This document shows positions 7,793 through 13,864 of a DNA stretch of 57,937 nucleotides, piece after piece (within the stretch, counting starts at the first letter, position 1; every line of letters starts with the position of its first letter). Location: positions 1 to 57,937 of the forward strand of contig WHTJ01000017.1 of assembly GCA_009377795.1 (NCBI GenBank), in the 5' to 3' direction. The notes beneath the pieces are model-generated. The model was not told the DNA's origin, did no database searches, and was given only the letters and a program-made list of their open reading frames with translations. The stretch is from Propionibacteriales bacterium. GTDB taxonomy: Bacteria; Actinomycetota; Actinomycetes; Propionibacteriales; Nocardioidaceae. The translations under genes were made by a program, and so were the position numbers.

Positions 7793-8677
7793 TCAGGACC
7801 GAAAGAAGGGGAGAAGTTCGGCGAGAAGGTCGTCCGGAGCCTCTTCGTTGACGTAGTGGCCGCAGTCGACTCCCCGGCCGCGGACGTCCTCGATGCGCTC
7901 CTTCCAGATCCCGAGGACATCCCCGTATACGGTGCCGGTGTGGCTCCGCAGCCCCCACAGCACGAGCGTCGGGACGCTGACCTTGCGGTCGAGATCCGCG
8001 GTGTCCAACTCGAAGTCATATGTCGCGGTCGCTCGGTAGTCCTCGCAGCTGCCCCGGATGGTCTTCGGTGTGAAACAGCGGACGTACTCGGCGAAGGCGT
8101 CGGGATGGAACGGAGCCAACCCGACGCCGGGCTTGGAGAGCTTTCGCTCCATATACCACTCGGCTGGAACAGCGCCCATCATCCCCTCGGGCAGGTCCGC
8201 GGGCTGCGCCATGAAGGACCAGTGCCACGATTTCATCGCCCATGCCTTCGAGGTGTGGGTGAACACGTACTGGCTGGGGAGGATGTCCAGCAGGGCGGCC
8301 TTGCGGACGAGCTCCGGATGGTCGAGGCACATCCGATGGACGACCCGGGCACCACGGTCGTGCCCGGCGACGTAGAACTCCTGATGGCCGAGGTGTGCCA
8401 TGAGCCGAATCTGGTCCTGGGCCATAGCCCGGAATGAGTAGTTCACATGGTCCGGCCCGGGCTCGGGGGCGGAGCTGTCCCCGTAGCCGCGTAGGTCGGC
8501 TGCGACAACGTGGAAATGTTGGGCGAGCGGGGCGGCGACCTTGTGCCACGACACGTGCGTCAGCGGGTTGCCGTGGAGCAGCAGCAGCCCTGGACCTGAC
8601 CCGCCATGCCGGAATCGGATGCGGACGTCGTCGGCGGTGTCGAAGTCGTCCACCTCGAAGCCCTCGAAACCCTCCAT
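7793..8677 (-). CDS. Alpha/beta hydrolase, haloacetate (fluoroacetate) dehalogenase-like
   Basis: A 294-residue alpha/beta hydrolase closely resembling haloacetate dehalogenase H-1. It has the oxyanion block LLLHGNPLTHVSWH, the ADLRGYGDSS segment, an Asp nucleophile in GHDRGARV (with the two Arg that bind the carboxylate), a His-Trp pair (KSWHWSFMAQP) equivalent to the halide-binding site, and a catalytic His near the end (CGHYVNEE). The ATG at 8677 follows AAGGAG; an upstream GTG at 8689 would overlap the preceding gene. It lies 2 bases after the glutaredoxin-DinB gene, so the two form an operon. Other ester or epoxide substrates are possible, but the residues favour haloacids. Confidence 0.85.
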   Translation of the reverse strand: MEGFEGFEVDDFDTADDVRIRFRHGGSGPGLLLLHGNPLTHVSWHKVAAPLAQHFHVVAADLRGYGDSSAPEPGPDHVNYSFRAMAQDQIRLMAHLGHQEFYVAGHDRGARVVHRMCLDHPELVRKAALLDILPSQYVFTHTSKAWAMKSWHWSFMAQPADLPEGMMGAVPAEWYMERKLSKPGVGLAPFHPDAFAEYVRCFTPKTIRGSCEDYRATATYDFELDTADLDRKVSVPTLVLWGLRSHTGTVYGDVLGIWKERIEDVRGRGVDCGHYVNEEAPDDLLAELLPFFRS

Positions 8678-8679
8678 GC

Positions 8680-9432
8680 TCAGTACCACTCCTTGGGCAG
8701 GTCGACCAGCATCTCGACGTCTATCGCGTCCGCCGTGTCAGCGCCGTGGCGGCGCAGTGCATCGATGAGGTGGCGGAAGTGGTACGCGAGGTGCCACCGC
8801 TGCGACTCCAACAGGACGGAGTAGGGGATGTCGCCCTTGTGCGGCGACGAGACGACGGGATCCGCCCGGTCGAGCGCCTCTCCCGTCTCCAGGACGAAGT
8901 TCTGCCAACGCTGATGGTGATCGAGGGCGTAGCCGCACAGCTTCTCCATGGAGGTCAGTGGCTGCTCGCGTGCGACGTCCGCATCGCCGGTGAACCAGGG
9001 GAAGTCGCGCGTATTCCATGCCTCGCGGACGAGGTCGAAGGGGTGGAACGCGTTCACCGTGATGTTCCGAACACTGCGTCCCCGCGCAGGCGTGGGCTCC
9101 AGCGCCGCGTCCCACCCGAGTCGCGGCAGCAGATCCACATAGCTCTGCTGGATCGACGTGATGTCCCAGGCGTTCGCCTGCGAGCTCGCAGGCGACCCGG
9201 CCGACAGCTCGAGGATGGAGGCGATCTGAGAGAAGTGCAGGATGGACGTGACCCGCTCGCCGACCGCGATCGCCGGTACGTACGGGCTCCCCATCTCCTC
9301 GTACAACCGTTGCCCCTCCGCACCATCGTTGGCGTTCAGCGACTGGTGGGGGATGTTTCTCGTCCCAAGGAACTCCTTGGCTGCGGCGCAGGACGCTCAA
9401 CCAGGACGCCAGAACAGGCTGATTCCGCTCAT
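8680..9432 (-). CDS. Predicted selenoprotein: glutaredoxin-like domain fused to DinB-like domain (TGA at 9397-9399 read as Sec)
   Basis: Standard translation splits this gene, but one frame runs from ATG 9432 (behind GAGAGGTGAGG) to the TGA at 8680 if the internal TGA at codon 12 is read through. The product would be 250 residues: MSGISLFWRPG-U-ASC-AAAKEFLG, a glutaredoxin/mycoredoxin start with Sec12 and Cys15 forming UxxC where relatives have CxxC. The fold continues with the cis-Pro block SPYVPAIAVG (about residues 48-58). Residues about 85-240 resemble DinB/mycothiol-isomerase helical bundles, with LDHHQRW and a WHLAYHFRH HxxxH motif for metal. A SECIS-like hairpin follows the TGA. The alternative is a TGC-to-TGA nonsense mutation. 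Confidence 0.75.
9361..9395 (-). promoter_or_regulatory. Candidate bacterial SECIS element of the glutaredoxin-DinB gene
   Basis: On the mRNA strand, 22 bases after the TGA, CCAAGG-AGTT-CCTTGG forms a 6-bp hairpin (extendable to 7 bp with a GT loop), with a G in the second loop position. An outer CGTC/GACG helix closes it. This fits the published bacterial SECIS rule of a short apical hairpin about 16-37 bases after UGA with a G in the first two loop bases. Confidence 0.7.
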
Positions 9433-9521
9433 GGGCCTCACCTCTCCGTGCCGGCTACACGAATTCACCACGGTAGCAATAACGGATAGGATATAGAACG
9501 TTGTCTACAGGAAGGGCGAAT

Positions 9522-11009
9522 ATGGTCACGGCGAGTTACGATGTGGTTGTCGTCGGTGCTGGCAATGCCGCACTCGTTACTGCTCTCTCCGCGCATGAGG
9601 CCGGGGCTCGGGTGCTCGTGCTCGAAGCGGCTCCCCGCGAGGAACGCGGTGGCAACAGCAGGTTCTCCGGCGGGATCTTCCGCATTGCTCACGACGGACC
9701 CGATTCGCTGGAGCCGTTGCTGACTGCCGAGGCTCGCGAGTGGCTTCGCAGGATCGATTTCGATCCATACCCGGCGGAGCGGTATCTCGGCGAGGTGCAA
9801 CGGCTTGCGGCCGGGCGGAGCGATCACGTGCTGGTGAAGCGGCTCGTCGATGACTCGTACCGGACCGCTGAGTGGATGCGCGACCAGGGCGTCCGCTGGG
9901 AGCTGGCGGTCGGCAAGATCATCGACCCGGAGAATGTCGACGAGGACACGACGTACCGGTTGCCTGCCGGTGGCGCCATGCGTGCGACCGAGGAGGGCGT
10001 CGGGCTCATGGACGACCTGTTCGCGGCGGTCGAACGCGCCGGCATCGACGTGTGGTACGACTCTCCCGTCCATGAGCTCGTGCTCGATGGAACCTCGGTG
10101 ACCGGGGTGGTGGTGCGGACCCAGGACTCTTCCATCGAAGTTTCCGGTGTGGTCGTGCTCGCGGCCGGGGGGTTCGAAGCCAACCCGGAGATGCGGCTGC
10201 GCTACCTCGGACCGGGCTGGGACCTGGTCAAGGTGCGCGGGAGCCGGTTCAATATGGGCACCGTACTGAGCAAGGCGTTACAGGCAGGAGCTCAGCCGGC
10301 CGGCCACTGGGGTGGGTGCCATGCGAGTCCGCTGGACGCTGATGCGCCAGCCGTCGGGGACCTGCGACTCACCGACAGGATGAGCCGGTATTCGTACCCG
10401 TACGCTCTCCTCGTCAACAGCGCGGGTGAGCGCTTCATCGACGAGGGTGAGGACGAGGTCTGGCTCACCTACGCCAAGACCGGGGCCGCCATCCGGGAGC
10501 AACCCCATGCCGTGGCCTTCCAGATCTTCGACCAGAAGACCATTCACCTCCTCGAGCCCCGCTATGAGACCGGAGTCCCGGTGGAGGCCGACTCTCTCGC
10601 GGCGTTGGCGGAGAAGCTCGAAATTCCCGCTGACGCGCTCAGCGCCACCGTCGCGGACTTCAACGCCGCGACGACCGCCGGGGAGTTCGAGCCGTTCCGC
10701 AAGGACGGCCTGCGGGCCGACCCTGCCGGGCAGCCGGCCAAGTCGAACTGGGCACAACCCGTGGACACTCCGCCGTACGTGTGCTATCGGGTCACCTGCG
10801 GAATCACGTTCACCTACGGGGGCGTCAAGATCGACGAAGGGGCACGGGTCATCGACACGACCGGCAGGCCGATGCCCGGTCTCTACGCCACCGGAGAACT
10901 GGCCGGCGACTTCTTCTACCACAACTATCCCGGTGGGTCGGGCCTCACCCGCGGCGCGGTGTTCGGCCGGATCGCCGGGCAGGCGGCCGCCGAGCGTGCG
11001 ACCGGCTGA
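9522..11009 (+). CDS. tcuA: FAD-dependent tricarballylate dehydrogenase TcuA-like
   Basis: A 495-residue flavoprotein of the fumarate reductase/succinate dehydrogenase family, best matching TcuA, which oxidises tricarballylate to cis-aconitate. It has an N-terminal dinucleotide motif (VVVVGAGNAALVTALSA), the adenine/ribose block ERGGNSRFSGG, a GGFEANPEMR segment near residue 215 and the C-terminal FAD/active-site block FFYHNYPGGSGLTRG. The ATG at 9522 follows AGGAAGGG; the TTG at 9501 is less likely. It heads a four-gene operon with an unknown protein, the UGSC selenoprotein and a CoA transferase. A second paralogue is encoded at 13876. The real substrate may be another polycarboxylate. Confidence 0.88.
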   Translation: MVTASYDVVVVGAGNAALVTALSAHEAGARVLVLEAAPREERGGNSRFSGGIFRIAHDGPDSLEPLLTAEAREWLRRIDFDPYPAERYLGEVQRLAAGRSDHVLVKRLVDDSYRTAEWMRDQGVRWELAVGKIIDPENVDEDTTYRLPAGGAMRATEEGVGLMDDLFAAVERAGIDVWYDSPVHELVLDGTSVTGVVVRTQDSSIEVSGVVVLAAGGFEANPEMRLRYLGPGWDLVKVRGSRFNMGTVLSKALQAGAQPAGHWGGCHASPLDADAPAVGDLRLTDRMSRYSYPYALLVNSAGERFIDEGEDEVWLTYAKTGAAIREQPHAVAFQIFDQKTIHLLEPRYETGVPVEADSLAALAEKLEIPADALSATVADFNAATTAGEFEPFRKDGLRADPAGQPAKSNWAQPVDTPPYVCYRVTCGITFTYGGVKIDEGARVIDTTGRPMPGLYATGELAGDFFYHNYPGGSGLTRGAVFGRIAGQAAAERATG

Positions 11010-11023
11010 GGGAGGTGGGCCCG

Positions 11024-12130
11024 ATGGTCGACACCCAGCTGCCTGTGACCGTCGACGAATGCGAGGACGAATCCTGCGCGCTGCCGTCGTCCTACGATGA
11101 CGCCGAGGCGGCGCATGAGGCGCTCGCAGCGGCAGGCTGGACGGATGGCCTGCCGGTCCGGCTACCCACCGCGCCGGCCGTACGCCGGATGCTTGAGCCG
11201 AACCGGCTCGAACCCGAGGACGGGCTCGGTCGACTCCCCCCGGTATGGGGTGAGGCGACGTACGGGCGGGTGGCCGCGAACGCGGTCATGGCCGGCTGCC
11301 TCCCGGAGTACTTCCCGGTCGTCCTCGCGGCGCTGCGGGCCATGCAGGATGAGCGGTTCAACATGCACGGCGTGCAATGCACGACGCACGTGGTCGCTCC
11401 CCTCCTCATGGTCAACGGCCCGGTGCGGGCGAGAATCGGGATCAACAGCGGCCACAACTGCCTGGGACAGGGCGCCCGGGCGAACGCGGCGATCGGTCGA
11501 GCCGTGCGGCTGGCGATGGTGAATATCGGTGGCGCGACCCCCGGTAGCCTCGACAAGGCGACCTTCGGCCACCCCGGGAAGTTCGCGTACTGCTTTGGCG
11601 AGAACGAGGAGGAGAGCGCCTTTCCTCCATTCCACACGACCCGCGGCTACCGGGCCGAACAGAGCACCGTGACCGTCTTCCCAGGCGAGGCGCCGCACAA
11701 CATCAACAATCACTCCTCAGATCCGATGGAGCTGCTGGGAGCCGTGGCGAGCACCATGGCGACCCTGGGCAACAACAACATGTATGTCTCCGGCGAGGTG
11801 ATGGTGGTCCTGGGCATCGACCACGCCAAGCTGCTCGACGAGGCCGGGTTCCAACGCCACAACGTGCAGGAGTTTCTGCACGAGCGTGCGCGGCTGCCCG
11901 TCGGCGCCCTGCGTACCGGCGGGATGTACGGCCACGATGTCGGCCGCAATCTGTGGCCGAAATGGGTCGATCGAAGAGACAGCGCCGCGCTCGTGCCGAT
12001 CGTCCGCCGACCCGGAGATATCCACGTCGCCGTCGCCGGAGGCGTGGGTCCGCATTCGTTGTTCATCCCTGGTTGGGGCACGCGTGCCGTGACCGCCGAG
12101 ATCATGACCGATGGAGGAGCTGCCGCATGA
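11024..12130 (+). CDS. Uncharacterised protein paired with the UGSC selenoprotein
   Basis: A 368-residue soluble protein without a domain I can name. It begins with a Cys pair (DECEDESC, about residues 8-15). It contains a Gly-rich stretch typical of a cofactor- or substrate-binding site (GINSGHNCLGQGARANAAIGRA), then GGATPGSLDKATFGHPGK, CFGENEEES and TLGNNNMYVSGE. No signal peptide or membrane segment is seen. The ATG follows GGGAGGTGGGC 14 bases after the tcuA-like gene. Its stop overlaps the start of the selenoprotein (ATGA), so the two products are probably made in fixed ratio and may form one complex, perhaps a reductase or reductive lyase (inference). Confidence 0.85.
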   Translation: MVDTQLPVTVDECEDESCALPSSYDDAEAAHEALAAAGWTDGLPVRLPTAPAVRRMLEPNRLEPEDGLGRLPPVWGEATYGRVAANAVMAGCLPEYFPVVLAALRAMQDERFNMHGVQCTTHVVAPLLMVNGPVRARIGINSGHNCLGQGARANAAIGRAVRLAMVNIGGATPGSLDKATFGHPGKFAYCFGENEEESAFPPFHTTRGYRAEQSTVTVFPGEAPHNINNHSSDPMELLGAVASTMATLGNNNMYVSGEVMVVLGIDHAKLLDEAGFQRHNVQEFLHERARLPVGALRTGGMYGHDVGRNLWPKWVDRRDSAALVPIVRRPGDIHVAVAGGVGPHSLFIPGWGTRAVTAEIMTDGGAAA

Positions 12131-12702
12131 GACTTGAGGACGCTATCCGAGACTTCCAGCTGGTGCCGCCCATCGACCCGAGGGTCACCGAGCAGCGGCG
12201 GATGGCAGAGCGGCCAACCGATCTCGCCGGCCTCCGCGTGGGCCTGCTCGACAACCGAAAAGCCAACGCGAACGTGCTACTCACGTCGATCGGTGGCGGA
12301 CTGGAAGAGCGCTACGGGGCCGGTTCCACGGCGTTGTTCGAAAAGCCGGTCTTCTCGCGACCTTCACCGGAGCACTTACTCTCCGAGCTGGAGCGTTTCG
12401 ACGCGGTCGTGACCGCCCTCGGTGATTGAGGCTCGTGCACGTCGTGCAGTTTGCACGACATGTCAGTCCTCGAGGCCAAGGGCATCCCCACCGCCACGGT
12501 GTGTACCACCCGGTTCGCTTACGAGGCGGCCGAACAGTGGCGGGCGCTCGGCTACCGTGACCACGCCGTCGTGGAGGTGCGCCATCCGTTCGGGCACCTA
12601 GGCAGCGACGCGGTCATCGCAGATGGCGCTCGCGTCCTGCCGGACGTCGCCCGCCTCCTCACCACCGTCGGTGGGAAGGACGCCGCCGATGCCGCCACTT
12701 GA
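12127..12702 (+). CDS. UGSC-motif selenoprotein (TGA at 12427-12429 read as Sec)
   Basis: One open frame of 191 residues runs from ATG 12127 (overlapping the upstream stop) to TGA 12700 if codon 101 (TGA) is decoded as selenocysteine. The junction reads VVTALGD-U-GSCTSCSLHD, giving U101, C104 and C107: the UGSC motif of a selenoprotein family found in metagenome surveys, and a UxxCxxC arrangement like that of glycine/proline reductase selenoproteins. Upstream is RPTDLAGLRVGLLDNRKANA, a Rossmann-like first strand; downstream is IPTATVCTTRFAYEA and a further strand-helix pattern. Codon usage is uniform across the TGA and a hairpin follows. Conventional annotation would lose or split the gene. 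Confidence 0.9.
12441..12459 (+). promoter_or_regulatory. Candidate bacterial SECIS element of the UGSC gene
   Basis: A perfect 8-bp hairpin, GTCGTGCA-GTT-TGCACGAC, starts 11 bases after the TGA, with its loop 19 bases after it. The loop's first base is G, as SelB binding requires in known bacterial SECIS elements. The loop core (GTT) resembles that of the other candidate at 9361-9395. Confidence 0.8.
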
Positions 12703-13864
12703 GGGAGTCCGCGTCGTCGACCTGTCGCGCAACATCGCGGGTCCCCTCTGCACGATGCTCCTCGGCGACCTCGGAGCGGACGTGGTGAAAGTCGAGCGCC
12801 CGGAGGGCGGCGACGAGGCGCGCAACCATGCCGCCGATGGTGGGACTTCGTCGTACTTCGCGGCTCTGAACCGCAACAAGCGATCCGTGTGCCTGAACCT
12901 CAAGGATGCCGACGACGCCGCGGCGCTTGCCGCGCTGCTGCGCCGTTCTGACGTCCTGGTGGACAACTTCCGTCCGGGGGCGCTCGACCGCCTCGGGTTC
13001 GGCGACGAGCGGCTCTCGCGGGAGTTTCCACGCCTCGTCGTCTGTCATATCAGCGGTTTCGGTCCCACCGGCCCCTGGGCTGACGCTGCCGCCTACGACC
13101 ACATCATCCAAGGTTTCGCCGGACTGATGAGTCTCACCGGACCCGAGGGGGAGGGCGGGTACCGGACGAACACCTCGGTCGCGGACATCGTCACCGGGTT
13201 GTTCGCCGCCAATGCCGCGATCGCGTCGCTATGGGGCCGCGACCGGCGCGGGGACGGTGGACCGCAGCATGGCGGCGACATCGTGCACATTTCGCTGCTC
13301 GCGGGATTGTTGAACGCCCTGCCGTACCAGGCCGCGACCTACCTGACGACGGGTGAGGCGCCGGCACCCACGGGCAACCAGCATCCCTACATCGTTCCGT
13401 ACGGCACCTACCCGACCGCCCACGGCCTGGTCAACGTCTGTGTCGGTAACGACCGGCTGTTCGACCGCTTCTGCGGCGTGCTCGGCCTGGGAGACCTGCG
13501 GGCTGACCGGCGGTTCGCCTCCAACAGCGCCCGGATACGCAACCGCGACGCACTCAACGCGCTCGTCGTTCCCGCCTTCGCCACCCGCCCGTCGCAGGAG
13601 TGGATCAAGGCTCTCCGTGCGGCGGGCATCCCATGTGGGCCGGTCAACACGCTGCCGGAGGCGCTCACGCACCCGCAGGTCGAGGCGCTGGACCTCGTGC
13701 TGGAACTGAGCGACGGCGCCGGCGGCACGTTCCGCGTTCTTGGGTCGCCGTTCCAGTCGGAGCGGCTCGGCGATGTCGTCCGCCGGCGACCTCCCTTGCT
13801 CGGCGAGCATACCGACGAGATTCTGGCCGAGCTGCAAGACGACGCCACCGGCGAGGACAGGTGA
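12689..13864 (+). CDS. CaiB/BaiF-type (family III) CoA transferase
   Basis: A 391-residue family III CoA transferase, which moves CoA between carboxylic acids. The N-terminal block MPPLEGVRVVDLSRNIAGPL and LGDLGADVVKVERPEGGD bind CoA. The catalytic Asp is in TSVADIVTGLFAANAAI (about residue 168), and the C-terminal domain has the GIPCGPVNT segment. Its ATG at 12689 overlaps the end of the UGSC gene by 14 bases, so translation is coupled. In this operon it would activate the substrate or product of the TcuA-like dehydrogenase and the selenoprotein. A longer start at 12623 would lie deep in the upstream gene and is unlikely. Confidence 0.93.
   Translation: MPPLEGVRVVDLSRNIAGPLCTMLLGDLGADVVKVERPEGGDEARNHAADGGTSSYFAALNRNKRSVCLNLKDADDAAALAALLRRSDVLVDNFRPGALDRLGFGDERLSREFPRLVVCHISGFGPTGPWADAAAYDHIIQGFAGLMSLTGPEGEGGYRTNTSVADIVTGLFAANAAIASLWGRDRRGDGGPQHGGDIVHISLLAGLLNALPYQAATYLTTGEAPAPTGNQHPYIVPYGTYPTAHGLVNVCVGNDRLFDRFCGVLGLGDLRADRRFASNSARIRNRDALNALVVPAFATRPSQEWIKALRAAGIPCGPVNTLPEALTHPQVEALDLVLELSDGAGGTFRVLGSPFQSERLGDVVRRRPPLLGEHTDEILAELQDDATGEDR

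Follow-up and report, generated by a model that had tools for sequence, protein, structure and literature searches.

The UGA codon within a glutaredoxin-DinB fusion gene

The question raised by this locus was whether an in-frame TGA at the catalytic codon of a glutaredoxin-like gene is read as selenocysteine (Sec). The gene lies at positions 8680 to 9432 on the minus strand of the window, which is the whole stretch of 57,937 nucleotides that was analysed. A sequence-only reading of this DNA, which gave no strand, had placed the TGA on the first Cys of a glutaredoxin CxxC motif in an otherwise intact frame of 250 codons, and this was confirmed by re-reading the sequence. The frame starts at ATG 9432-9430, and ten further codons are followed by TGA 9399-9397 as codon 12, the predicted Sec codon, in the motif FWRPG-U-ASC. 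Beyond it, 238 sense codons were open until the stop TGA 8682-8680. The stretch past the UGA scored as coding by the codon usage of the window. An initiation signal and the ATG were located ahead of the UGA, where the start is predicted by the relatives. The gene is the second predicted selenoprotein gene of the window, as had been noted, the first being a UGSC gene with TGA 12427. We consider it highly probable (about 0.92) that the fusion gene encodes a selenoprotein in which the UGA is read as Sec. The frame, the site, the decoding genes, a second case of the UGA, the hairpin pattern and the predicted fold were all read from sequence and are given below.

Selenocysteine decoding genes in the assembly

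The assembly comprised 4.58 Mb in 182 contigs, of which the window is contig C121. The tRNA-Sec gene selC (74 bits, above the cut-off), selA (439 bits) and selB (281 bits) were found side by side on contig C39, downstream of a formate dehydrogenase beta subunit-like gene, and selD was found on contig C125. Since selA, selB, selC and selD were all present in the genome, UGA can be read as selenocysteine. MshD was also present. A contaminating contig was considered and rejected, because the tetranucleotide pattern of the window correlated with that of the other contigs at 0.97. For the first 14 kb the correlation was 0.85, whereas the window's two parts correlated with each other at 0.90, and the catabolic cluster around the gene may itself have been acquired.

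Hairpin downstream of the UGA codon

A SECIS-like hairpin with an AGTT loop 22 bases past the UGA had been proposed. The predicted hairpin (CCAAGG-AGUU-CCUUGG, 9365 to 9380, minus strand) was present with 22 bases from the UGA to the loop, but its significance did not hold for this gene alone. Between 30 and 82 of 200 shuffles folded equally well, and synonymous recoding with the codon usage of the window gave an equally long stem in 6% of cases in the same register and in 11% in any register. An Rfam search with the hairpin gave no match. Taken alone, the hairpin is no better than chance, and its significance comes from the comparison with other Sec genes.

The stand-alone Sec-glutaredoxins of the phylum, which were gathered because TGA occupies the same codon, had the hairpin, loop and offset in common, and the stems varied (ACGGAGA-AGUU-UCUCCGU, CUGAGA-AGUU-UCUCAG, GCUAAGA-AGUA-UCUUAGC and GAGAUGGA-GUU-UCUAUCUC). 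A stem of at least 6 bp in register was found in 21 of 22 Sec genes and in 2 of 80 Cys relatives, the Cys genes being drawn from another phylum than the Sec genes. In an alignment of eleven hairpins including that of the fusion gene, 90.9% of the cells paired and four of seven pairs changed on both sides. The covariation score of these eleven rows, which were related to one another and picked for one of two stem registers, was 0.457 compared to 0.217 in shuffles, and none of 500 shuffles scored as high. When a covariance model was made from ten genes other than this one, its best match in 58 kb was the fusion hairpin (18.7 bits). The second match of the model (17.6 bits) fell in a coding region, and weak matches also occurred on Cys relatives. 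This second hairpin, at 11858, was rejected as a SECIS element because no UGA was in position. AGTT was also found at the loop site in 41 of 80 Cys relatives; the loop letters are partly forced because a conserved K-E-F-L peptide is encoded there. Separately, a strongly covarying AGUU hairpin was seen in the stand-alone UxxC Sec-glutaredoxins L147-L164, L052 and L054, a type that was common in family f58 of the same phylum.

Cysteine relatives and a second UGA-containing fusion

Cys had been expected at the Sec site of homologues, and the alignment agreed. In an alignment of 48 rows, the site was Cys in 47 of 47 full-length two-domain relatives, and the resolving Cys15, H214 and H218 were invariant. 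Although a search of plasmid proteins did not require Cys, every full-length relative that it gave, from Roseomonas, Variovorax, Caballeronia and Rhizobium, had CSSC at the site. Scanning 84,980 species genomes with a profile found 201 loci with the Cys fusion, mostly from Proteobacteria among those kept, by a pattern that demanded Cys at the site and was therefore blind to Sec forms. These proteins are annotated as 'glutaredoxin domain-containing' or 'DinB family protein' (e.g. WP_162571355.1). The glutaredoxin-DinB fusion is thus an established and widespread protein type, of which the window holds a Sec version. No described function of the Proteobacteria family was found in a literature search. 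Its loci had no dominant conserved neighbour, the best being a short-chain dehydrogenase cluster at 14 of about 84 loci, so the context does not fix the function. A Cys glutaredoxin-DinB on a contig of a Candidatus Planktophila lacus MAG (L106) was filed under Actinomycetota and may be a binning error.

The window protein stood apart from these relatives on a tree branch of 7.9, with identities of 27% or less. Close relatives carrying TGC with no conserved hairpin had been named as evidence against Sec; the TGC and TGT relatives that were found came from other phyla and were only 20-28% identical, which does the Sec reading little damage. No close relative of the fusion protein was found among 395 genomes of the class and 392 of the order. 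Single-sequence scans of genome contigs and viral contigs returned no relative because the protein is so divergent that a profile is needed. TGA-bearing glutaredoxin matches in the same order were rejected, since they were ordinary CxxC proteins whose TGA was a normal stop.

When 396 genomes of the phylum were searched with a profile, one more match was full length and had a TGA inside its frame; it came from a genome of a different class (G437). This only other full-length relative from the phylum search kept both the TGA and a hairpin. Its motif was TYPG-U-IAC, and its DinB half and His ligand were maintained. The stem of its hairpin (GCGAAAG-AGUUG-CUUUCGC) was unlike that of the window gene, whereas the loop started 25 nt after the U of the UGA in both. 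The genome had its own selB and selD. Each half of both Sec proteins separately matched profiles made from the Cys fusions. The two proteins were 19% identical and joined in the tree by long branches, so the Sec form may have arisen once or twice.

Two domains and predicted fold

The glutaredoxin domain covered residues 1-78 (9199 to 9432, minus strand), as indicated by Pfam Glutaredoxin PF00462 (residues 5-60, 30.7 bits with gathering 22.9, E 3.6e-7), by structural matches and by the match to the half profile, and the UxxC sits at helix 1. Residues 79-250 (8683 to 9198, minus strand) were assigned to a DinB/YfiT-like four-helix domain by the fold and the profile of the relatives. A Pfam search of the window protein gave no DinB match, whereas the relatives matched PF12867. 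AlphaFold2 with the 48-row alignment gave a model with pLDDT 83.5 and pTM 0.79. Predicted residues 1-77 matched BC3987 (Z 13.0) and NrdH-type redoxins (Z about 10.8). Predicted residues from about 84 to 238 matched the DinB proteins YfiT (1rxq, Z 13.0, 162 aligned) and 3di5 (Z 13.1), and this half also matched a mycothiol-dependent maleylpyruvate isomerase (Z 11.6) and the M. tuberculosis mycothiol S-transferase (Z 10.8); scores of this size are close to what helical bundles give as background, although the best of the DinB matches extend over the domain. Matches to GST-like folds were rejected as kin, as they spanned both domains with an rmsd of about 5 or more.

Two metal-ligand histidines, H214 and H218, were kept in the window protein. 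The third was replaced by N127, at a position that is His in 47 of 48 rows. H130, one turn on from N127, might substitute as ligand. In the B. subtilis proteins BstA-H, all activity was metal dependent and the three His were the only invariant residues (PMC5815605). The Asn at position 127 therefore makes transferase chemistry doubtful in the window protein, and its DinB half may be no working transferase. The redoxin site was intact.

Gene neighbourhood and the UGSC selenoprotein

An alpha/beta hydrolase gene (7793 to 8689, minus strand) overlaps the downstream end of the fusion gene, and the two probably share a transcript. On the other side, a gap of 89 bases (9433 to 9521) separates the fusion gene from a divergent operon on the plus strand. 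The first gene of this operon encodes a TcuA-like FAD-dependent dehydrogenase (9522 to 11009; NCBIfam NF006130, 502 bits). It is followed by an unnamed gene without Pfam or NCBIfam match (11024 to 12130), the UGSC family selenoprotein gene (12127 to 12702; NF041046 126.3 bits, PF24696 149.8 bits) and a family III CoA-transferase (12623 to 13864). The UGSC gene, the only copy found in the genome, has its UGA at 12427-12429 and a hairpin GUCGUGC-AGUUU-GCACGAC at 12441-12459. The UGSC family was described in 2008 (PMC2398784), and no assigned function was found in a literature search. The wider region, 1 to 36400, is a dense carboxylic-acid catabolic region with a tripartite tricarboxylate transporter. 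It holds two TcuA-like flavoproteins, two CoA-transferases, two MmgE/PrpD proteins and one aconitase-like protein, together with two adenylosuccinate-lyase-like proteins and three amidohydrolases.

Homologues of the 11024 protein (43-49% identical) adjoined UGSC in Arthrobacter, Natrinema, Halorientalis, Halalkalicoccus and Roseovarius, in neighbourhoods that were read on plasmids. From this arrangement, UGSC and the 11024-type gene look like a two-gene cassette, accompanied twice by thioredoxin reductase. Because thioredoxin reductase occurs beside UGSC elsewhere, it is plausible that UGSC has a redoxin partner. The nearest redoxin seen to UGSC in the window was the Sec glutaredoxin-DinB protein.

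Proposed function and alternative readings

We tentatively propose, at somewhat less than even odds, that the fusion protein is a Sec-dependent (myco)thiol-disulfide oxidoreductase that serves the catabolic cluster. The UGA at 9399 is in all probability decoded as Sec by the genome's own SelA, SelB, SelC and SelD, with the AGUU-loop hairpin just past it guiding the decoding. The product is then a glutaredoxin with a Sec nucleophile (UxxC), and fused to it is a DinB/S-transferase-like bundle, a type of domain to which low-molecular-weight thiols bind. In the proposed mechanism, a (myco)thiol or a conjugate of it would be held by the DinB half, the mixed disulfide or conjugate would be attacked by the Sec in the glutaredoxin half, and Cys15 would resolve the Sec intermediate. 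In this way, the enzymes of the surrounding carboxylic-acid cluster would be kept reduced. We infer the translation, the identity of the thiol, the substrate and the reaction. A mycothiol link of the putative oxidoreductase is plausible from MshD and from the mycothiol S-transferase among the structural matches. A helper role in dehalogenation, which had also been suggested, found no support in the analysis.

The fusion protein might instead serve mainly as a donor of electrons dedicated to the UGSC pair, which is encoded on the other side of the divergent promoter, in a relay of two selenoproteins. We regard this as unlikely, and equally so its extended form, in which a mycothiol-charged Sec glutaredoxin-DinB would pass electrons to the UGSC pair as a mycothiol-linked, selenium-dependent reductase system within the catabolic cluster. 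The divergent arrangement over 89 bases is in line with such a relay. UGSC pairs also adjoined thioredoxin and thioredoxin reductase in Arthrobacter and trxB in Roseovarius, and CoA-transferase, LLM or TRAP/TTT transporter neighbours were common to UGSC pairs elsewhere and to the window. However, no redoxin was annotated beside UGSC in the annotated Halobacteria loci, and no homologue of UGSC or its partner was found in the retrieved flanks of the Cys fusion loci and of L027. The proximity of the two genes was seen in one genome only.

With a similarly low probability, the protein would be a mycothiol S-transferase for electrophiles, with the glutaredoxin half merely a thiol carrier. The DinB/YfiT fold, the match to the M. 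tuberculosis enzyme and the MshD gene would suit this role, but one of the three His is Asn, and BstA-H all depend on metal, with only those three His fully conserved (PMC5815605).

Two further readings deny Sec altogether. It is very improbable that a TGC or TGT of a Cys gene was turned into TGA by a nonsense mutation or by a wrong base call, which would make the locus a pseudogene. This is a single gene in an assembly of 182 contigs, the base is not backed by any close relative, and the hairpin is not significant alone; however, the TGA falls exactly on the catalytic codon and recurs there with a hairpin in a second lineage, the downstream codons remain open with normal codon usage, and the sel machinery is complete. 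Least probable of all is an ordinary stop followed by a DinB-only protein from the in-frame TTG at 9306 or an ATG further on, since the glutaredoxin fold would be halved, all relatives have the full fusion, and the initiation signal and ATG stand ahead of the UGA.

Comparison with known systems

The Sec form of glutaredoxin-DinB was found in only two genomes, that of the window and G437. The suggestion of a new type of selenoprotein is therefore to be divided: the fusion is already known from the Cys loci, and the Sec form is new as far as checked. A partial literature search found no relevant paper linking a selenoprotein and DinB, and unpublished annotation may exist. A 2026 review of prokaryotic selenoproteins lists the Sec glutaredoxin and several fusions and never mentions DinB (PMC13188914); this fusion form would join the list of bacterial selenoproteins. 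It would connect selenium with the chemistry of low-molecular-weight thiols in an organism that makes mycothiol, offers a candidate redox partner for UGSC and points to the large Cys-form family in Proteobacteria. By standard annotation, the gene at 8680-9432 would be truncated or dropped.

The bacterial Sec-glutaredoxin (PF00462, UxxC; PMC13188914) resembles the window protein in its glutaredoxin fold, in its Sec nucleophile and in the SECIS directly downstream. However, it is listed there without DinB, whereas about 170 residues at the C-terminal end of the window protein form a DinB-type domain. The Uxx-star (NF041212) and HUGP/GUXX-star (NF045501) proteins are also glutaredoxin-like, contain Sec and are in some cases fused, but the window protein scored far below their cut-offs (21.4 bits compared to 66, and 14.6 bits compared to 325). 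YfiT/BstA bacillithiol transferase and mycothiol S-transferase share the four-helix fold and the HxxxH ligands. In contrast to the window protein, they have no glutaredoxin domain and possess three His, one of which is Asn here. The Proteobacteria Cys fusions have the same domain order and the invariant HxxxH, and both halves match by profile. They differ in that the Sec site is occupied by Cys, the hairpin is not conserved and the third His is kept.
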